A stretch of DNA of 30,516 nt, taken from positions 1 through 30,516 of the IMG/VR virus record IMGVR_UViG_3300037042_001180, one strand, 5' to 3'. The DNA is from a virus. A model generated the notes under the pieces. The model saw only the letters and a program-made list of their open reading frames with translations, was not told where the DNA came from and made no database searches. A program made the translations under genes and the position numbers. Below, piece by piece: positions 10,117 through 23,174 of the stretch; position 1 is the first letter of the stretch, and each line of letters starts with the position of its first letter.

Positions 10117-10283
10117 CACTTGGCTTTCTTTGGGGCTTTGCCTGGCTTGCCTGCTTTGAGTGCGGCTGTGCGTGCGGTGCTGAGTGCGACTGCAATGGCT
10201 TGCTTTTGGGGCATTCCGGATTTCACTTCTTTGGAAATGTTTTTACCGATTGATTTGGTGCTATAGCCTTGTTTCAGGGGCAT
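10116..10283 (-). CDS. Very small basic conserved protein (55 residues)
   Basis: ATG at 10283 is preceded by GGAG with 8 bases spacing, and the frame ends with TGA at 10116. The protein starts MPLKQGYSTKSIGKNISKEV, continues with SGMPQKQAIAVALSTARTAA, and ends in a Lys/Pro-rich tail. The KQAIAVALSTAR core is a motif that I know from short conserved phage and bacterial proteins of unknown function. It is between the homing endonuclease gene (10-base overlap) and the next small basic gene (1-base overlap). The overlap with the endonuclease implies that the endonuclease was inserted tightly between coat and this gene. Confidence 0.7.
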   Translation of the reverse strand: MPLKQGYSTKSIGKNISKEVKSGMPQKQAIAVALSTARTAALKAGKPGKAPKKAK

Positions 10284-11020
10284 GGTGTTTTCTCCAGTTT
10301 GCGTTTATCACGGGCTAATTGCATAGATGCCAGTCGCTTGGCCCTGATAACAGGGTCTTGCCACGAGCTTGTTGTTTTTCCAGAGATTTTCTGCTTTGTA
10401 CTTTCATCTCGTGCAGGTCTAGTTCGTTCTTTTGCTGCTTGGCTCATCTTGGCACGAGTTTCTGGAGTTCTCTTGTAATCTGCCAACTTTTGCTTGGTTG
10501 ATTCTGGCATTACATAACCAGATTTTATGCGTTCTTTCCATGCCAGTTTTGTTTGCATAGATCGTGCTAAACGCATCTCATCTGTCCATGTTGCCTTAAG
10601 GCTTTCAGTTACCTTCTTACGATAGTCTTGATTTTTCCAAAGTTCAATTGATGCCTTAACCCATGATGAAACGTCAGCATACTTTCTGCCTGTAGCCTTT
10701 GCAGAAATCTTCGCAGCAACATCTGGATTTTTGGATGGGGCGGTTTCACCACCGTAAGCAACGTTGTACCCTTGTGGAGCCAATGTTCCTAAAGCAATGA
10801 TCGCCACTTTTTCTGCCGCGTGCAATTCGGCTTGCGTCTCAAACTCAGCAGCCACCGTGATTGCAGGCTCACCGTACTTGCGCCACGCACAATGCACAGC
10901 CAATTGACTGTCACTTTTGACAGACCGCTTATGCTGTGCGATGCGGATATTCATATTGCGTGACGTTTGTCCGATATATGCCTTGCCCGACGAAAAAACC
11001 AACTTGTACAAAATGTGCAT
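10274..11020 (-). CDS. Free-standing GIY-YIG homing endonuclease
   Basis: The 248-residue protein has a GIY-YIG nuclease domain at about residues 1-95: LYKLV at 4-8 stands for the GIY element, AYIGQT follows at 14-19, then an Arg at 26, a Glu in ELHAAEKVAII and GYNVAYGGE at the end. The C-terminal part has repeated basic motifs (TKQKLADYKRTPETRAKMSQ, then STKQKISG) of the NUMOD3 type that bind DNA in homing enzymes. It is not inside an intron as far as can be seen and sits right behind the coat gene. A sampled 60 bases are 43 percent G+C. It would cut related phage genomes lacking the gene near this site. Activity is not proven. Confidence 0.88.
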   Translation of the reverse strand: MHILYKLVFSSGKAYIGQTSRNMNIRIAQHKRSVKSDSQLAVHCAWRKYGEPAITVAAEFETQAELHAAEKVAIIALGTLAPQGYNVAYGGETAPSKNPDVAAKISAKATGRKYADVSSWVKASIELWKNQDYRKKVTESLKATWTDEMRLARSMQTKLAWKERIKSGYVMPESTKQKLADYKRTPETRAKMSQAAKERTRPARDESTKQKISGKTTSSWQDPVIRAKRLASMQLARDKRKLEKTPCP

Positions 11021-17080: not shown

Positions 17081-17953
17081 TTACCCTGCCTCATTAATTT
17101 TTTTGTGACGTTCATGCATTATTTTCGGAACAGCCTTGTTCCATTCAATTTTGTGATGAATACGCGGATGCGTCGTGATCAACATGCTGACCTTGCAGCA
17201 GCTTGGAGCCGCCATTACACTGTAAAAGGATTTGACATAAGTCCCCATTGTTTTGTATGCCTCTGTGTTTCCGCCTGAGTTAGATTGCGTTTGCATTTGG
17301 GTCAGCATGACATTGGCGATCTGACAAAAGATTTTGCCTGTTCTGCCATGGGTCAGATAGGTGTTGACGTCATCGTTCATACGGCCTATGAAAATGCAAT
17401 CATCGGATGGGTCTTTGTTGACCTTAAACACAAAGCTGTTCATGGCTTTGCGTTTGTATTGCACGCTATCAAATGATGCTGCGCCACCAATGAAGTCGCC
17501 GCCCTGAGCCATTGCGATGGTAGTGGCTTTCGTGTTTTCTAGACAATCAATGAAGGCATCAAATACTTTGTTCATTCTTGTGATGGGCTTGTAACCTAAA
17601 GTAGGACCATCAACGAAACGATGAATGAGGCTTTTGTAGTCGTCTTCATACTCAAAGAAGTAGTCCAAGCCTAGCGTCCGTGCGATGTCATAGCAGGCAT
17701 TGCGTGCATAGACAATTACCTTATTACCCTCGAAGTTGTCCATGATGTCAAACTTGTCTTGGTAAGATTGTTTGCTGAAAACAATCACCTGATCTTTGTA
17801 CTTTTCTTGGTACTCCAATAATGTTTTGTCTTCATCGTCACAAATGAGGTAAATTTTTCCCGTGTAGCCTGATTGCCGCAAGGTGTTATAGGTGATCACC
17901 TTGTCAGGTCGGCCATGAGTCAAGATGAAAACGGCATAGTTATGCATTGCCAT
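17081..17953 (-). CDS. Putative TET-associated-type glycosyltransferase (TAGT)
   Basis: The 290-residue protein looks like a GT-A fold glycosyltransferase of the phage TET/JBP-associated group. The N-terminus reads AVFILTHGRPDKVITYNTLR, then GYTGKIYLICDDEDKTL, then VYARNACYDIARTLG followed by FFEYEDDYKS at about residue 100-120, where EDD is in the usual place of the metal-binding DxD. This family is predicted to put sugars on oxidised or hydroxymethylated pyrimidines in phage DNA. It overlaps the phosphatase-nucleotidyltransferase gene by 14 bases and is followed 2 bases later by terminase small subunit. ATG 17947 is an alternative start. No TET oxygenase or nucleotide hydroxymethylase is visible in the window, so the acceptor is uncertain. 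Confidence 0.75.
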   Translation of the reverse strand: MAMHNYAVFILTHGRPDKVITYNTLRQSGYTGKIYLICDDEDKTLLEYQEKYKDQVIVFSKQSYQDKFDIMDNFEGNKVIVYARNACYDIARTLGLDYFFEYEDDYKSLIHRFVDGPTLGYKPITRMNKVFDAFIDCLENTKATTIAMAQGGDFIGGAASFDSVQYKRKAMNSFVFKVNKDPSDDCIFIGRMNDDVNTYLTHGRTGKIFCQIANVMLTQMQTQSNSGGNTEAYKTMGTYVKSFYSVMAAPSCCKVSMLITTHPRIHHKIEWNKAVPKIMHERHKKINEAG

Positions 17954-18896
17954 TTTTCACTCGCGTGCTGCTGTAATTGTGTTTGCGTTTGAGGTAGATT
18001 ATTTCTTTGCCTAAAGCGTCAATCTTGGATTTCATTTCCCATTCGTCTGTGCGATGGTCTTCACCTAAGAAATAAACATCATACTCAAGGGAGGAAAATA
18101 TATCTGCATCTCTGGTGGGGTTCTCATAAGGGATTACTTCATCAACCCATTTAACGGCACGCAACTGCATGTATCGCTCATAAATTGATTGAATTGGGTC
18201 TTTGTATGTTGGTTTGCAATGAAGTCCAACAATAAGCACGTCGCAATGTTTCTTTGCTTCTTCAAGAGCCAATACATGGCCTGAGTGCAAGATGTCTGCG
18301 ACCATTGGGAAAAATCCGATTTTCATATTGCTGCCTTTTGATGTTGATGATTCAATTGTGTATGGTTTGCAGTTTTTTATGTGCAGGTCGTAATATGCTT
18401 TGTGAATAACCTTTTTTGGCGGGTTTAAAGCAAACATAAACATTTTGATGGTTCCGCTGTGAGCCACAATGAGAATGCTTTTTCCGCTGTGTTTGCTTTC
18501 CATGTCGTTGACAAAAGATTTAACCCTAGCCAAAAAAGCCGTTTTGCTTTCTATTTGATATTTTTGCAAAAAATTAGGGTCTTCGCTTTTCAATAGCTTT
18601 TCGCTGTTGAGGTGCTTTCCTTCTAATAAGCCTTTGCTGAGTTCCATGAGCCTGGGGTCGCATGATTTCTCTGTGTGGCGGTGGTATCTTAAAATTTTGT
18701 TAGCCGTAGATTTTGCGCGTTGCAGTGGTGAGTAGTAGCAATAATCAAAATGATCATGCTTGAGTTCATTAGCAAGTTGGTGGGCCTGCTTAGCGCCAGT
18801 CTCATTTAATGGGATGTCGTACTGGCCATGCATGATTCCATTTTTATTCCAATATGTCTGGCCGTGCCTAACAAGAATGTATTTATTCTTCGCCAT
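17940..18896 (-). CDS. Histidine phosphatase - nucleotidyltransferase fusion protein
   Basis: Residues 1-160 are a phosphoglycerate-mutase-like histidine phosphatase: VRHGQT (catalytic His 11, Arg 10) and a second His in VAHSGT (146). Residues 191-318 are a cytidylyltransferase-type domain: FFPMVADILHSGH with HxGH at 204-207, and YSSTRVK at 308-314 equal to the ISSTxIK motif. Both active sites look intact. Such enzymes remove phosphate from a sugar or polyol and activate it with CTP or ATP. Gene overlap with the glycosyltransferase suggests that it supplies its activated donor. ATG at codon 191 has an AGG-containing site 7 bases upstream and could make the second domain alone. In one sampled 60 bases G+C is 35 percent. 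The substrate is unknown. Confidence 0.85.
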   Translation of the reverse strand: MAKNKYILVRHGQTYWNKNGIMHGQYDIPLNETGAKQAHQLANELKHDHFDYCYYSPLQRAKSTANKILRYHRHTEKSCDPRLMELSKGLLEGKHLNSEKLLKSEDPNFLQKYQIESKTAFLARVKSFVNDMESKHSGKSILIVAHSGTIKMFMFALNPPKKVIHKAYYDLHIKNCKPYTIESSTSKGSNMKIGFFPMVADILHSGHVLALEEAKKHCDVLIVGLHCKPTYKDPIQSIYERYMQLRAVKWVDEVIPYENPTRDADIFSSLEYDVYFLGEDHRTDEWEMKSKIDALGKEIIYLKRKHNYSSTRVKNGNA

Positions 18897-19650
18897 TTAA
18901 ATCATCTATTTGCGCGGTTAAGTGAACAAATCCATTTTCAATGGCTTGCTTGTAATCAACAATTACAAGAGCACTTTTCTCCATTAGCTCTTGGCATTCT
19001 TTTGACGAGTGCGCATAAAAATCTGCGACTTTGGAATAATTGAAAACAATATGACGTGATGCAGCCGCCATCAAAAAATCTTTTTCTTGTTGAGTTAGCT
19101 TGCTTTCTTTGATGTCAGCAATCAAGCCCATTGCCTTTTCATCGTCGTACAAATCTTCTACTGGTGGCTTTTTATTTTTCGGTTCGTAGGTTGGAACTGT
19201 GATTTTGTCACTGTAAATTGCATCTGCCTCTGAAATATCCATTAATAATTTCAATTCTTTGTCATTAAATCCAGTGAGCGAGAGGTCAAAGCCTAAATCG
19301 CTAATCTCGCCCAGCTCAAGAGCCAGCATGGATTCATCCCACCCAGCATTCAAAGCCAGCTTATTGTCGGCAATGATGTAAGCCCGCTTCTTTGCGTCGC
19401 TCCAGCCGGAGGCCACCATTACGGGGACTTCAATCATCTTGAGGCGTTGGGCGGCGAGGGTGCGCCCGTGGCCTGCAATGATGCTTCCTGCCTCGTCAAC
19501 TAGCACCGGGGTAGTCCAGCCCCATTCTTTGATTGAGGCGGCTATTTGGCCGATTTGCTCGTCCGAGTGGGTGCGGCTGTTACGGGCGTAAGGAATGAGG
19601 CGGGTGATGTCCCACTTTTCCACTTTGTCGGCTGGGTTGATGGTCGCCAT
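18883..19650 (-). CDS. ParB/Srx-type domain protein with extra C-terminal domain
   Basis: ATG 19650 (MATINPADKVEKW) gives 255 residues and lies 2 bases after the stop of the small secreted-type gene. Residues about 10-105 are a ParB-like domain: IPYARNSRTHSDEQ, then IAGHGRTLAAQRLK and YIIADNKLALNAGWD. This form is common in phages, often next to or fused with DNA methyltransferases, but no methyltransferase is present. The last 110 residues are a separate helical domain (ADIKESKLTQQEKDFLMAAA, then ASRHIVFNYSKVADFYAHSS) that I recall from other phage proteins, also without known function. It overlaps the fusion-enzyme gene by 14 bases. It may bind or cut DNA, or hydrolyse NTP as ParB does. Confidence 0.85.
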   Translation of the reverse strand: MATINPADKVEKWDITRLIPYARNSRTHSDEQIGQIAASIKEWGWTTPVLVDEAGSIIAGHGRTLAAQRLKMIEVPVMVASGWSDAKKRAYIIADNKLALNAGWDESMLALELGEISDLGFDLSLTGFNDKELKLLMDISEADAIYSDKITVPTYEPKNKKPPVEDLYDDEKAMGLIADIKESKLTQQEKDFLMAAASRHIVFNYSKVADFYAHSSKECQELMEKSALVIVDYKQAIENGFVHLTAQIDDLNGEE

Positions 19651-19652
19651 GT

Positions 19653-19778
19653 TTAAAACCCTGAGCTGCTGCTGGTGGTGCAGGTGATGCTGTTGTCCCA
19701 GTTCCTGACGCACCGGGTGGTGGTCTGAGCCTGGGCAAAAGTGGCGGTGAGCGTGAGGATAAGGATTAGGGTTTTCAT
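19653..19778 (-). CDS. Short exported protein with signal peptide (41 residues)
   Basis: The frame from ATG 19778 to TAA encodes MKTLILILTLTATFAQAQTT followed by about 21 residues with RCVRNWDNSITC. The first 18 residues are a textbook signal peptide with AQA-Q cleavage. The mature part would be about 23 residues with two cysteines spaced for one disulphide bond and a Ser/Thr-rich end. It is 2 bases before the ParB-type gene and 26 bases after the DUF6378 gene; the ribosome binding site is weak. Related tiny phage periplasmic proteins exist, but I know no function. Envelope or superinfection control is a guess. Confidence 0.65.
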   Translation of the reverse strand: MKTLILILTLTATFAQAQTTTRCVRNWDNSITCTTSSSSGF

Positions 19779-19804
19779 AATGTTTAGTTTGTGTGATTTT
19801 GTGT

Positions 19805-20086
19805 TTATTGTGCATTGTCCTCTTTTTCTAAGCGGTTAGCCACCAAAGTTGGATAGCCGCCAAGGTCGACCCAGTTGTCGGCATAGTTTGGGTCACCGTT
19901 GAGGATGCGTGCAATTTTGTGGGCGATCATTTCCAAGGCTTCGCGTTGGTCACTTACCAGACGTTCCCAGCCCGGGTGATTGCGCATGTCGTCCTTGATG
20001 GTTTGGCTGATGCTGGCATGGCCTTCGAAAGTGCCGTAGCGGGCTTCACGGCCTGCGAGCATTTCATTGATGTTGGTTTGTTTCAT
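19805..20086 (-). CDS. DUF6378-like phage protein
   Basis: The 93-residue protein has MKQTNINEMLAGREARYGTF, then PGWERLVSDQREALEMIAHK followed by IARILNGDPNYADNWVDLGG. This last block is the hallmark of a widely distributed phage family of unknown function that I remember as DUF6378. It is helical, soluble and without catalytic motif. Its ATG overlaps the stop of the 188-residue gene (ATGA). Similar proteins often lie in nucleotide-metabolism or replication neighbourhoods, and a role as small regulator or binding protein is possible. Function remains unknown. Confidence 0.82.
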   Translation of the reverse strand: MKQTNINEMLAGREARYGTFEGHASISQTIKDDMRNHPGWERLVSDQREALEMIAHKIARILNGDPNYADNWVDLGGYPTLVANRLEKEDNAQ

Positions 20087-20649
20087 AAGTCTTCTAATTC
20101 ATCTGAGAGGTTGTTAAAAATGTCAAGCCTGTGCTGCTTGAGTAACATTGCATTTTTTGTCATAAGCAGTTTCCCATTTTTTGATGAAAGCCAGTAATTG
20201 GCTTTGTGAGGAACGCGCTGACCTAGGGCTACAACTTTCAAGTTGTTGCAATTTGGGGCGTATTCTTTGCGAAATAAACGCCATTCAATGCCTGGTTCAT
20301 TGTCATCGTCAAGCCTGCTGCTGGTCATCCATCCTTCGCCATCCGGTGGTAGGTTTCCTGCAAACATCTTGATTGATGTTTTTTTCTCGCGTGGCTTTTG
20401 TGCATTGAGTTTTTGAACGCATGGAACGCACCAGCGTTTTACGCCGCCGTCTTCAATGAGGCCATCTTCCATGAGTTGGTTAATGATTCCGCCTGGCCTT
20501 GATGGGGCTGCATGGTTGTTGATGGTGCGCTCTGCGTAGCCTTGAGCCGCCATCCATTGAACGAAGTCATCACGCTTAACGGTGAAGTTGGTGCTGTCTG
20601 GAAAAGCGCCAAGGTAAAGGCATAGCTTGTAAAAGGATTTCTGATTCAT
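20083..20649 (-). CDS. Unknown protein, possible winged-helix N-terminus
   Basis: This 188-residue protein is not recognised. The N-terminal 75 residues look like a winged helix (FVQWMAAQGYAERTINNHAA, then GGIINQLMEDGLIEDGG). WCVPC follows at about 74, and the rest is basic with an ending NAMLLKQHRLDIFNNLSDEL. It follows the 78-residue gene by 2 bases and overlaps DUF6378, so all three are translated together from the promoter at 21.03 kb. The 78-residue protein has a similar pattern (short helices then GGLLQANMIEPF), so both may be related DNA-binding proteins. Confidence 0.7.
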   Translation of the reverse strand: MNQKSFYKLCLYLGAFPDSTNFTVKRDDFVQWMAAQGYAERTINNHAAPSRPGGIINQLMEDGLIEDGGVKRWCVPCVQKLNAQKPREKKTSIKMFAGNLPPDGEGWMTSSRLDDDNEPGIEWRLFRKEYAPNCNNLKVVALGQRVPHKANYWLSSKNGKLLMTKNAMLLKQHRLDIFNNLSDELEDL

Positions 20650-20651
20650 GG

Positions 20652-20888
20652 CTATGTCACGTTTTTGCTAATCATCATTGCGCTGGCCCATGCGTGATCA
20701 ATGACGACCCAGCCATGTTCGAATGGTTCGATCATGTTTGCTTGGAGCAAGCCGCCGATAAGTCCATCGCCATTTGACGGGTCAACCGCCTTGCGAATTT
20801 TGGCTGGCGAGTAGCCTTGATTTTGCAAATGATTTTTTAAACCGCTTTCGCTGATGTAAGGTCTTGAACCCTGTTTTTCCCAATTCAT
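20652..20888 (-). CDS. Small protein with winged-helix-like pattern
   Basis: I set the start at ATG 20888 (MNWEKQGSRPYISESG) because a GGAG site lies 5-6 bases ahead; a longer frame from 20921 lacks one. The protein has 78 residues with ESGLKNHLQNQGYSPAKIRK, then DGLIGGLLQANMIEPFEHGW, which resembles a small winged helix. It is the first gene after the leader region and promoter at 21.03 kb, so it is an early gene. It could regulate or bind DNA. I do not recognise the family. Confidence 0.72.
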   Translation of the reverse strand: MNWEKQGSRPYISESGLKNHLQNQGYSPAKIRKAVDPSNGDGLIGGLLQANMIEPFEHGWVVIDHAWASAMMISKNVT

Positions 20889-20942
20889 AAATTCTCCAAA
20901 ATTAATCGCATTACCGAACAACCCACCTGCCTATCACCTATT

Positions 20943-20964
20943 CCCCAGTTTCACTTAACTGGGG
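20943..20964 (-). promoter_or_regulatory. Perfect 8-bp inverted repeat in the leader of the 20.9-kb operon
   Basis: CCCCAGTT and AACTGGGG are separated by 6 bases, 55 bases before the ATG of the 78-residue protein. Without a U-run it is not an intrinsic terminator. It may be an operator or an mRNA structure downstream of the promoter at 21031-21060. Confidence 0.45.
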
Positions 20965-20989
20965 GTATAGGAGTATGGGTAGGGTAGGG
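20961..20989 (+). repeat. G-run tract with GGGTA repeats (possible G-quadruplex)
   Basis: On the plus strand a GGGGG run is followed after 11 bases by GGG TA GGG TA GGG. Four G-runs could fold into a quadruplex, and the minus strand would be C-rich. It lies in the non-coding leader next to the primase-helicase gene. It may bind a protein, slow polymerase or be part of an origin; none of this is proven. Confidence 0.4.
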
Positions 20990-21024
20990 TAGTTTCCGTA
21001 ATTTATGCCACCTTCGACTACCCT
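20986..21024 (-). promoter_or_regulatory. 8-bp inverted repeat at the likely transcription start
   Basis: AGGGTAGT at 20986-20993 pairs with ACTACCCT at 21017-21024, with 23 bases between. The right arm is where the transcript from the promoter at 21.03 kb should begin, so it could be an operator or a 5'-end stem-loop that protects the mRNA. Confidence 0.4.
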
Positions 21025-21030
21025 GTGCAT

Positions 21031-21060
21031 AGTATATAACATATTGATTTAGGTTGTAAA
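21031..21060 (-). promoter_or_regulatory. Sigma70-type promoter for the 20.9-kb minus-strand operon
   Basis: On the minus strand, TTTACA (21060-21055) is followed after 16 bases by TATATA with an upstream TG (extended -10), or after 18 bases by TATACT. Both spacings are acceptable for a host sigma70 promoter. It lies behind the primase-helicase stop and points to the 78-residue gene and on to the ParB/glycosyltransferase cassette. No other promoter this good was noticed upstream of terminase. Confidence 0.65.
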
Positions 21061-21082
21061 GGGTTTTTTTGGGTTGTTTTTG

Positions 21083-22882
21083 TTATCTGGTTTCAGCTTG
21101 TGTTGACCACCATGCGTTTTCAAGAACTCGGCTTTCAGAGCTGAATTTTGATTCTTTTTTGTCTGCTTTGGCGGGTGCTTGAGCCTCGATAATCACGGCG
21201 CTGGTGACTGGTTTGTCGTCTTCATCGAACCAGCCTGGAATGGCTACTTGGTGAAGTTCAACGAATACGGTCTCTGCCATTTCTGCGTCTTTGCTCTTTC
21301 TTTGCACGATTTCCATGGGTTTGGTGTCTTTGCCGGGCACGATGCTGATCTCAATATCCAGTGCCCCGCGCCATGCGCTTGAGCCTCGGGCGCGGTGTTG
21401 GGCTTCTTCGCTGACGCCGGTGTGGTGCACCAGAATAACGGAGCAGGAAAACTCCATCATTAAGGCGTTGCAGGCGTCCAGCATGGTTTTGGCGTCCTGG
21501 GCGCTGTTTTCGTCGCCTGATAGAAAGCGGTGCAGGGTGTCCACCACGATAACGCTGGGGCTAATGTTGCTCTGCTTGATGGCTGAGGTTACGCGTTGAT
21601 AGCCTTCGGTGGTGTTGAGGTCGCAGCCATCCCGAGAGAGCCACATTGAGAGTTTCCCGGCCTGATTGTGGTGCTTCCAGGCGGCGACCCTGCCGCGTAG
21701 CCCGTGGTGACCTTCGCCCGCTAGGTAAACCACGTTGCCGGTTTTTACTTTGTGGCCTATCCAGTCGGGGGTGCCGCTGGCCATGCGAAGGCACCAGTCT
21801 AAAACTACGAAGGTTTTGCCGCCACCGCTGGGGCCGTGAACCATGATTAGGGCTTGCTCTTGAAGCCAGCCTTTGACGAGCCAAGCGATGGGGCTGGGTT
21901 GGGCGCAAAAGTCATCTGCTGGGATGAGCCAGTCATTCTTTGGAGGGATGAGCAGGGCGGCTAGGTTGTGGCCTGCCTGGGCGTAGTCGTTGGCGTCCCC
22001 TGGGAGTGGTGGCATTACGACCCTGACGCCATATTTGGCGCTGGCCTGATCTGCGTAGCGTTGGCCGACTCCAGAGGCGTCATTGTCTGCGACTAAAACA
22101 ATGTCCTGGGTGGGGCTGTACATTTCGCGCAGGCTGGCGGTGACGGGCACTAAGTTGCTCGCGCTATAGGCGACTACGCAGGGGCGGTTGGTGGTTTCGT
22201 GGATTGTGGCGGCGGTGGCAAAGCCTTCAGCGACATAAAGCGTGCCGGGTTCGTCCATGGTGCCGATCATCCAGAACTTGCCGCCGGTCTGACCGCCTGA
22301 GTGGTAGAGCTTGCCGCCGTCGTGGGTGATGTACTGCAAGCTGGCCAAGGTTCCGTCTTGGTCGTAGAGGGGGACTACCAAGCGGCCATCGCCGGTTGCC
22401 CGAGCGCCGTGGACGCCGATACCTTTTTTGGCTAGGTATGGGTGATCTTGCAATGCGGCCTGTGCGCCGGTCCAAATCTTTTCTACTGTGGCGGATGCCG
22501 CTTCATGTTTACGCTCTAGTTCCGCGTCGCGTAGGGTTTTGGCTTCGGTCATGCGCCTGGCGTGGGCCATTTCCTCGGTCTGGGTGAGTTTGCGCCCGAC
22601 GTCTGCCCTGAATGTTTGCTCCATCCCCATGCGCCAGCAACCAAAGCGGCCTGCTGGGATGCCGTCACCAAAAATCAGATACCAGCCGGGCTTGTCGCCG
22701 TGGCCTGGTGCGCCTTTTGTGCCTGATTTAAAGCGGTGAATCTTGCCGTCCATATGGATGTCGTCCGGCGGTTCCAAGCCTGAGTTGGCCATGGCTTCGC
22801 GGAGTTGGGTTTCCGGGCTAGAAATTAGCTTTTCTGGTGGTGGTGCCCAAGGCCCGCCGAGGATGTTAGATAGATTCGCCAT
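21083..22882 (-). CDS. Toprim primase - RepA-type helicase fusion
   Basis: The 599-residue protein has a front region with FGDGIPAGRFGCWR at about 71-84, then a Toprim domain with LYVAEGFATA (catalytic Glu 219), LVADNDASG (Asp 266 and 268) and GDANDY at 295. The second half is a RecA-like helicase of the RepA/AAA_25 type: Walker A GPSGGGKT at 350-357, VIVVD at 444-448 and LVHHTG at 484-489. There is no clear N-terminal zinc finger. It would prime and unwind DNA at the phage fork. Its start overlaps the end of the HTH gene by 17 bases, so both are made from the divergent control region at 23.1 kb. Confidence 0.92.
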   Translation of the reverse strand: MANLSNILGGPWAPPPEKLISSPETQLREAMANSGLEPPDDIHMDGKIHRFKSGTKGAPGHGDKPGWYLIFGDGIPAGRFGCWRMGMEQTFRADVGRKLTQTEEMAHARRMTEAKTLRDAELERKHEAASATVEKIWTGAQAALQDHPYLAKKGIGVHGARATGDGRLVVPLYDQDGTLASLQYITHDGGKLYHSGGQTGGKFWMIGTMDEPGTLYVAEGFATAATIHETTNRPCVVAYSASNLVPVTASLREMYSPTQDIVLVADNDASGVGQRYADQASAKYGVRVVMPPLPGDANDYAQAGHNLAALLIPPKNDWLIPADDFCAQPSPIAWLVKGWLQEQALIMVHGPSGGGKTFVVLDWCLRMASGTPDWIGHKVKTGNVVYLAGEGHHGLRGRVAAWKHHNQAGKLSMWLSRDGCDLNTTEGYQRVTSAIKQSNISPSVIVVDTLHRFLSGDENSAQDAKTMLDACNALMMEFSCSVILVHHTGVSEEAQHRARGSSAWRGALDIEISIVPGKDTKPMEIVQRKSKDAEMAETVFVELHQVAIPGWFDEDDKPVTSAVIIEAQAPAKADKKESKFSSESRVLENAWWSTQAETR

Positions 22883-23060
22883 GGGTGGTGTTACGGCTGG
22901 TTAAGTAGGCGCTGAGGGCAAGCATTACTTTGTAAGTGGGGTTAGCGTTTTCATTGTCTCTGATCTGAGCAATGGTGTTGTAGTGCAGGCCGGTGGCCTC
23001 TGCTACTTTGCCGGGGCTTCGGTCTTCTAGGGCTTGGCGGATTGCGTAGAGGGTCATCAT
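22866..23060 (-). CDS. Small HTH regulator (Cro/CI-like)
   Basis: The 64-residue protein contains a typical helix-turn-helix: ALEDRSPGKVAEATGLHYNT with the recognition helix near YNTIAQIRDNENANPTYKVM. It has the size of Cro-type regulators. The ATG at 23060 has AAGGA 9 bases upstream; a second ATG follows directly. It is the first gene of the minus arm and faces the plus-strand recombination operon, with a palindrome (ATTCTA-TAT-TAGAAT) between them, so it probably regulates both arms. A prophage repressor role cannot be claimed because no integrase or second repressor is seen. Confidence 0.82.
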   Translation of the reverse strand: MMTLYAIRQALEDRSPGKVAEATGLHYNTIAQIRDNENANPTYKVMLALSAYLTSRNTTHGESI

Positions 23061-23103
23061 GGTTTTTGTTCCTTTTGTGAAAATAAATTGTTTTGATGTG
23101 TTG

Positions 23104-23118
23104 ATTCTATATTAGAAT
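23104..23118. promoter_or_regulatory. Probable operator, perfect 6-bp dyad in the divergent control region
   Basis: ATTCTATATTAGAAT has 6-bp arms and a 3-base centre. It is the only clear short palindrome between the HTH gene and the Sak4-like gene. It contains -10-like sequences (TATATT, TAGAAT) for plus-strand transcription; the -35 is poor (TTGTTT at 23088, 19 bases from TAGAAT). A bound HTH dimer would block RNA polymerase. Confidence 0.55.
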
Positions 23119-23124
23119 AAGGCC

Positions 23125-23155
23125 ATGCCCCGAACTGATACCCAGACGGGGGCAT
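23125..23155 (+). promoter_or_regulatory. Leader hairpin before the Sak4-like gene
   Basis: ATGCCCC and GGGGCAT form a 7-bp GC-rich stem with a 17-base loop. It is followed immediately by AAAAAAGGA, the ribosome binding region of the first plus-strand gene. It may stabilise the mRNA 5' end or modulate translation. It is not a terminator for plus-strand transcripts because an A-run, not a T-run, follows. Confidence 0.45.
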
Positions 23156-23174
23156 AAAAAAGGATGAATTGAAG

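Follow-up and report, generated by a model that had tools for sequence, protein, structure and literature searches.

A putative replication origin between a phage primase-helicase gene and its detached winged-helix domain

What is the function of the densely structured, non-coding stretch that adjoins the primase gene of this virus? The window analysed here is the whole 30,516-nt stretch of IMG/VR virus record IMGVR_UViG_3300037042_001180. A preliminary description, made from the letters of the window, had recognised a promoter, two 8-bp dyads and a GGGTA tract beside the primase gene, and had interpreted them as a structured non-coding leader that could serve as an origin, an operator cluster or an RNA switch. 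All of these features are present, the promoter at chance level and the hairpin as a mildly unusual structure; as for their interpretation, a replication origin fits better than a leader or an RNA switch. For most environmental phages the origin has yet to be assigned, since sequence alone does not reveal it.

The element and the split initiator gene

The features of the element are read on the minus strand, which is the coding strand here, and follow one another in the order TTTACA-18-TATACT, AGGGTAGT, ACTACCCTACCCTACCC, the CCCCAGTT/AACTGGGG hairpin, GGAG and ATG (Table 1). The downstream limit lies at about 20921 or 20889, beyond the 20930 given in the preliminary description. Dyad 1 is formed by two iterons that face each other. 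The apical stem of the hairpin, CCCCAGTT/AACTGGGG, is perfect over 8 bp and continues imperfectly to about 20935–20973. The GC content falls to 32–38% around 20991–21110, compared with 55% in the adjoining kilobase. The promoter-like pair is not above chance (1 found, 0.9 ± 1.0 expected; 1.2 kb scanned), a similar pair occupies the same position in the split-clade relatives, and the AT-rich stretch that holds it may double as a DNA-unwinding element. The G-run GGGTAGGGTAGGG at 20977–20989 occurs once in the window and in none of 100 dinucleotide shuffles; it sits on the plus strand, opposite the coding strand, and a transcript would therefore carry C-runs.

By count alone, the repeat of the window is low (four copies of CTACCC, a number that 1 of 40 shuffles reached), and the array is convincing only with the support of the relatives. 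Cumulative GC skew, one of the checks named in the preliminary description, was computed for the window and not for a full genome; it does not turn at the element and, at this scope, neither supports nor rules out an origin.

Table 1. Features of the locus and their coordinates in the window
Feature	Position	Strand	Basis or remark
WH2, 188 aa, second winged-helix protein related to WH1	20083..20649	-	WH profile match, hhalign, helix comparison, AF2
WH1, 78 aa from ATG at 20888 (likely start)	20652..20888	-	homolog of the primase C-terminal domain of relatives
Ribosome-binding site GGAG of WH1	20894..20897	-	sequence; GGAG retained in split-clade relatives
Putative replication origin, whole	20921..21082	-	between primase-helicase and detached WH1; kept in split-clade relatives
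Hairpin: apical stem 20943-20950 / 20957-20964, loop 20951-20956, lower stem 20935-20942 / 20966-20973	20935..20973	.	sequence and covariation
Three overlapping iterons GGGTAG (20977, 20982, 20987), the G-run tract	20977..20992	+	sequence
Dyad 1: AGGGTAGT 20986-20993 / ACTACCCT 21017-21024	20986..21024	.	8 bp; conserved in split clade
Iteron GGGTAG	21018..21023	-	sequence
Promoter-like pair TTTACA (21060-21055), 18 nt, TATACT (21036-21031)	21031..21060	-	AT-rich stretch; 10/12 consensus matches
Primase-helicase body, 599 aa: TOPRIM primase and RecA-like AAA_25 helicase	21083..22882	-	Pfam
HTH regulator, head of replication operon (context)	22866..23060	-	PHROG 18104, E 5.9e-9

The primase-helicase matches Toprim_3 (E 1.7e-12) and AAA_25 (E 1e-36), with no SF3 helicase family among its Pfam matches, and ends with TAA after residue 599. 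It was compared with a sample of 80 IMG/VR relatives of the primase. In the fused relatives with enough sequence, the frame runs past residue 599 for about 70 residues into a winged-helix (WH) domain at the C-terminus, a tail homologous to the product of the small open reading frame of the window, WH1. One such relative, L001, has a primase 98% identical to that of the window, with the WH tail fused. Because the frame is continuous in the relatives, the element lies inside what is one gene there and is not an ordinary spacer; in the window the WH domain is encoded separately, as a small protein, with the element between it and the primase-helicase.

This split layout recurs in six other loci, all of which keep the whole element. 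L196 is a further, more distant split case; in L193 an element of this kind separates a fused WH1 from WH2. Conservation of the element is looser in both. Both frame and stop vary among the split relatives; in L087, for example, the frame reads on for a few codons. Beyond these loci, the primase matches 4208 plasmid records, all below 60% identity and only two covering 80%. None of 100 pattern matches in bacterial genomes was confirmed, and the exact DNA pattern of the C-tract has five matches in viral contigs, all on contigs already among the relatives.

The WH1 open reading frame spans 20652–20921 in full. Its product is 23–44% identical to the fused or distant domains and 83–88% identical to the split ones. 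WH1 is predicted to be a winged-helix domain, with an AF2 model that folds as β-α-α-α-β-β-α (pLDDT 84.5). Among 367 Foldseek matches none has E < 0.001, and a second structure search returned generic, weak winged helices only (best Z 5.5, rmsd 3.0, 60 residues aligned); the origin-binding domain of P4 alpha is absent among the structure-search matches listed for WH1. Pfam, run on 39 WH domains, assigns no family to WH1 of the window, and two families have stray weak matches among the rest.

The second protein, WH2, is related to the first (hhalign probability 96.6, E 6e-10). It is found in the window, in the split-clade loci examined and in L193, and outside these the motif is limited to the L036 contig and related ones (L094, L158). 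In its AF2 model, the winged helix is joined by a C-terminal part of about 100 residues without an assigned role. The clade of the window thus has two related WH proteins after one putative origin.

Two further observations concern the surroundings. A possible DNA-modification cassette lies at 17081–19815 on the minus strand, with a TET-associated glycosyltransferase (PF20691, E 5.1e-31), a histidine-phosphatase/cytidylyltransferase fusion and a ParB-like protein; its GC content, 40–44% at 17–19 kb, is below that of the rest. The preliminary description had tied the element to the operon with this cassette, and the cassette does lie further downstream, with no link beyond that. Among the structural genes, the open reading frame at 10274–11020 (minus strand) has an N-terminus that we take to resemble a GIY-YIG endonuclease.

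Repeat arrays of the relatives and the helix that they track

Most relatives carry an array of a different repeat with the same architecture, directly after the fused primase-WH gene. The array is composed of tandem repeats, a GGGCAAAA-like spacer, more repeats, a hairpin and inverted repeats, and the repeat classes include GTAAC, GGAAC, AGGGGG, AGGGTCA, AGGGTA, CGGTAC and others. Arrays are also present in isolated phages, namely Idiomarinaceae phage 1N2-2 (GGTACA, 11 copies), Alteromonas phages PB15 and XX1924 (GGTTCA, 13 and 12 copies) and Salicola phage CGphi29 (GGGACA, 6 copies).

The census of arrays started from 221 loci, from which L081 and L088–L092 had been removed beforehand as copies of loci already included; 72 regions had passed an initial screen. 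Eighteen loci lacked a WH hit and 18 had too little flank, which left 185, or 84 distinct neighbourhoods after removal of near-copies. Seventy of the 84 contain a 6-mer whose density none of 40 shuffles matched. The 14 below this threshold are the window, four members of its clade or kin (L083, L085, L196 and L193), four loci in which exact copies of a known class repeat are too few (L001, L034, L054 and L077) and five without a recognisable array (L162, L171, L187, L205 and L206), the last two being truncated contigs for which coding DNA was scanned. Over the 70 loci, the 6-mer occurs 522 times inside the neighbourhoods (22.6 per kb) and 106 times outside them (0.23 per kb).

The position of the array is retained even where the gene order is disturbed: in L001 and L003 the primase-WH gene is followed by an inserted gene, behind which the array still stands. 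The inserted genes are small, unrelated and different in each locus, as in an insertion hot spot. L003 also has a dense GCCAGA array upstream of the primase (18 copies in 250 nt, at 1551–1950). DnaA-like boxes, TTATCCACA, flank the array in the GTAAC and GGAAC classes (e.g., L004 6010–6240), with two or more boxes in 17 of 19 and 6 of 7 regions, respectively; the count is 0 of 6 regions for the clade of the window and its kin and 0 of 17 for the AGGGGG class. This distribution suggests that host DnaA assists at some of these origins and not at others.

Comparison of repeats (as 6-mers) with proteins (as identities) indicates that the repeat follows a 12-residue helix of the WH domain and not the rest of the primase. 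The comparison used 74 of the 84 loci, 73 of them with a primase body; the 74 comprise the 70 above together with the window, L083, L085 and L196, which were retained although shuffles reached their count. Over the 73 loci, the raw correlation with repeat similarity is 0.47 for the helix, whose 12 columns were picked after the data were seen, 0.34 for the rest of the WH domain and 0.16 for the primase body. As partial correlations the three values are 0.32, which none of 999 permutations reached, 0.08 and −0.05.

Where two primase bodies are at least 70% identical, the repeat core is shared by 245 of 329 pairs with like helices, 6 of 45 intermediate pairs and 18 of 603 pairs with unlike helices. 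With more distant bodies, the repeat is shared by 2 of 31 like-helix pairs (helices at least 75% identical), 45 of 239 intermediate and 174 of 1381 unlike pairs. The rule that joins helix and repeat is not universal and performs poorly with distant primases, in part because single substitutions seem to switch the repeat. Such a switch appears, for example, between SEASAKQYIKPS with GTAAC and SEASAKQAIKPS with GTACA. Between the GTAAC and GGAAC groups (19 and 6 sequences), 2 of 80 WH columns separate the two; one of these falls in the 12-residue helix, where Gln (Lys in three offset rows) goes with GTAAC and Val with GGAAC.

Applied to the window, the correspondence between helix and repeat predicts that the repeat is better matched by WH2 than by WH1. 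The WH2 helix, YAERTINNHAAPSR, is closest to the helices of phages with the repeats AGGGTCA and AGGGTA, both of which share AGGGT with the AGGGTAG of the window. WH2 may therefore be the reader of this repeat, and WH1 may be a remnant or a partner.

A hairpin conserved as structure

A perfect stem of at least 7 bp with a loop of 3–6 nt is present in 59 of the 84 neighbourhoods, not all of which bear the same hairpin; the figures for shuffled 300-nt segments and for downstream controls are 146 of 1680 and 20 of 137. Given the frequency in the shuffled segments, the hairpin of the window is on its own only mildly unusual. One form has a TTTA loop, found in 49 of the 84 neighbourhoods on 22 different 7-bp stems. 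Across 29 distinct rows of these stems, 186 of 203 cells are Watson-Crick pairs, 2 are G-T pairs and 15 are mismatched; at control TTTA sites, 4 of 220 reach five of seven pairs and none more, in a comparison that sets the best site per region against single control sites.

In the clade of the window the loop is AAGTGA or AGTGA instead of TTTA. The stem of this clade (six sequences, with L167–L170 left out of the structure alignment) has 15 pairs, with 95.5% of its cells paired; 4 of the 15 pairs are changed on both sides, a number that 1 of 500 shuffles reaches. These patterns indicate that the stem is maintained by compensation while its sequence drifts. A TTTA-loop hairpin without a fixed stem sequence has as candidate roles a cruciform, a priming site or a loading site, and the scarcity of G-T pairs gives a slight lean toward a DNA rather than an RNA structure.

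A probable origin, its rivals and its relation to known systems

We consider it probable that the element is the replication origin of this phage, the first of the options in the preliminary description. This assignment derives from the architecture and position that the element shares with its relatives and from the co-variation of repeat and WH helix. The lack of DnaA-like boxes in the clade of the window weighs against it.

An operator reading, also among the earlier options, calls on much of the same evidence. A WH protein, or WH2 or the HTH regulator, would bind the repeats and autoregulate an internal promoter and leader for WH1, WH2 and the genes behind them, with the hairpin as a bystander or as an element of translation or stability. 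WH domains are common in regulators, the promoter-like pair and the dyads overlap in the clade of the window, and WH1, which has a good ribosome-binding site, lies immediately downstream. If the same domain recognised a conserved operator, much of the same pattern, including the co-variation, could result. We nevertheless judge it unlikely, as the array in the fused classes stands behind the initiator gene and not before it, the DNA-binding domain is fused to a primase-helicase, and up to 13 copies around a sequence-free hairpin exceed the need of an operator. No second cluster is found at another promoter in any of the 70 loci (70/70), and the 13 GGGTAG copies of the window all lie away from its main divergent promoter near 23060–23169, so that an operator cluster finds little support.

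The hairpin could instead act in RNA, as part of a 5′ leader, an attenuator or a small RNA, with the C-tract pairing either with GGGTAGT upstream or with GGTAGGAGGG downstream. The two mutually exclusive partners of the C-tract are visible in the sequence, the stem changes are compensatory, and the stretch has a modest folding excess (z −1.84; 8 of 200 shuffles at least as stable as the RNA fold). Relative to shuffles, however, both DNA strands fold as well or better (z −2.05 and −2.56), and the stem changes are almost all Watson-Crick, with the two G-T pairs in 203 cells noted above. There is no Rfam match at gathering score and no tRNA in the window. The place of the element relative to the genes also shifts, from before WH1 in the window to after WH1 in L193 and behind the inserted genes in L001 and L003, and pairing leaves unexplained the tandem direct repeats that track a protein helix. 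An RNA function, and with it the RNA switch suggested earlier, is accordingly improbable.

Still smaller is the chance of a G-quadruplex or i-motif switch, in which the plus-strand GGG-TA runs would fold and control the region. GGGTAGGGTAGGG and a GGGGG run fit a loose quadruplex pattern, which is found in all six neighbourhoods of the clade and its kin, but in 0 of 19 and 0 of 7 neighbourhoods of the GTAAC and GGAAC classes; for the remaining neighbourhoods the counts are 9 of 17 and 8 of 35. Because these sister classes have the same architecture, the G-runs of the preliminary description follow from the repeat of each class and are a by-product rather than the function. Least probable of all, to the point of being negligible, is a mobile insertion in the primase gene, an intron-like or bypass element whose splicing or skipping would give back the fused protein. 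The element does fall exactly at a domain boundary, in a gene that relatives carry uninterrupted; against this, WH1 has its own ATG and a conserved GGAG, no Rfam intron match was obtained, frame and stop differ among the split relatives, and the same type of element behind the whole gene elsewhere shows that it is not foreign to the locus.

Starting from the observed gene order, architecture, co-variation, stem compensation and WH fusion in most relatives, we propose how the origin may work. WH1, WH2 or both would bind the GGGTAG iterons as double-stranded DNA, as the co-variation suggests, and the bound protein would recruit the TOPRIM/AAA_25 primase-helicase, to which the domain is fused in relatives. 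The AT-rich stretch at 21026–21060 and the iteron-flanked hairpin would then open, perhaps as a cruciform or an exposed single strand, which would allow the helicase ring to load. By analogy with the ssi hairpins of RSF1010 or the stem-loop of pRN1, the hairpin would mark the place of loading or of first priming. In the clade of the window the putative origin now separates the primase-helicase from its WH domain, and the detached WH1, which has its own ribosome-binding site, probably also has its own promoter, a predicted one, inside the origin.

A wider reading joins these elements, which we put forward tentatively, with a chance slightly under even. The phages would carry a natural recognition code that can be read from sequence: the WH domains, about 70 residues long and without a Pfam model, would form a family with at least nine iteron specificities (GTAAC, GGAAC, AGGGGG, AGGGTCA, AGGGTA, GGTTCA, GGTACA, CGGTAC, GGGACA and others), switched by one or a few residues in one helix. 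Origin and binding domain would constitute an exchangeable identity module on a near-identical primase-helicase, and the clade of the window would have split its initiator into primase-helicase, WH1 and WH2, with the reading of the repeat passed to WH2. A search confined to open PMC papers found no description of an origin family of this kind.

If the origin reading is correct, the origin of a whole phage group, the four isolated phages included, can be named from architecture. The group would also provide a natural experiment in protein-DNA specificity, in which single-residue changes of a helix are set against single-base changes of a repeat. Sister phages with near-identical primases could, by exchanging the origin-and-WH module, replicate in one cell without cross-recognition, an idea that bears on the compatibility of co-infecting phages.

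The closest known systems each share part of this organisation. In satellite phage P4, as described in PMC4234260, the alpha protein unites a TOPRIM primase, a helicase and a winged helix that binds the origin repeats. The same division of labour is found in the fused relatives, and the window has the TOPRIM primase domain (Toprim_3). The helicase of P4 alpha is of the SF3 type, whereas the helicase here is a RecA-like AAA_25 domain. In further contrast with P4 alpha, the origin here adjoins the gene and holds a compensating hairpin, and the WH domain of the window is detached and accompanied by a second one, the same-chain arrangement being confined to the fused relatives.

Origins of the type of pRN1 (ORF904) and Bordetella phage BIP-1, again as treated in PMC4234260, have a stem-loop directly downstream of the primase-helicase-WH gene that is needed for replication and conserved in structure but not in sequence; restoring the symmetry of the stem restores its function. 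A stem-loop conserved as structure just downstream of the primase-helicase gene is likewise found here. pRN1 differs in having an archaeo-eukaryotic primase, an SF3 helicase and a large, 100-nt stem-loop without iterons, compared with TOPRIM, AAA_25, a short hairpin and iterons in the present system. Plasmid RSF1010, according to PMC4234260 and PMC4434180, combines iterons in its oriV with single-strand-initiation hairpins and has a separate binder, helicase and primase (RepC, RepA and RepB′). The split layout of the window resembles it in its iterons and hairpin and in the separation of binder and helicase. The RepB′ primase is, however, of the archaeo-eukaryotic type, unlike the TOPRIM primase here, which forms one protein with the helicase.

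The iterons of lambda ori lie in gene O, and specificity goes with the binding domain among lambdoid phages. The likeness to lambda O is that the iterons are beside or inside the initiator gene; lambda O is not known to have primase or helicase activity of its own and loads host DnaB. In PLE, a satellite of Vibrio phages, the RepA_N initiator recognises repeats in a non-coding region on which replication depends, according to PMC7145576. That initiator belongs to an unrelated family, and its repeats are inverted sub-repeats on a poly-A tract.

The general mark of iteron origins, a repeat array beside the initiator gene, is present here, above all 40 shuffles in 70 of 84 neighbourhoods and with four copies in the window. 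Because at least one defining feature of each of P4 alpha, pRN1 and RSF1010 is not shared, the present system is a variant and not a member of any of them: it mixes parts of P4 alpha, pRN1/BIP-1 and RSF1010 with a TOPRIM/AAA_25 protein.
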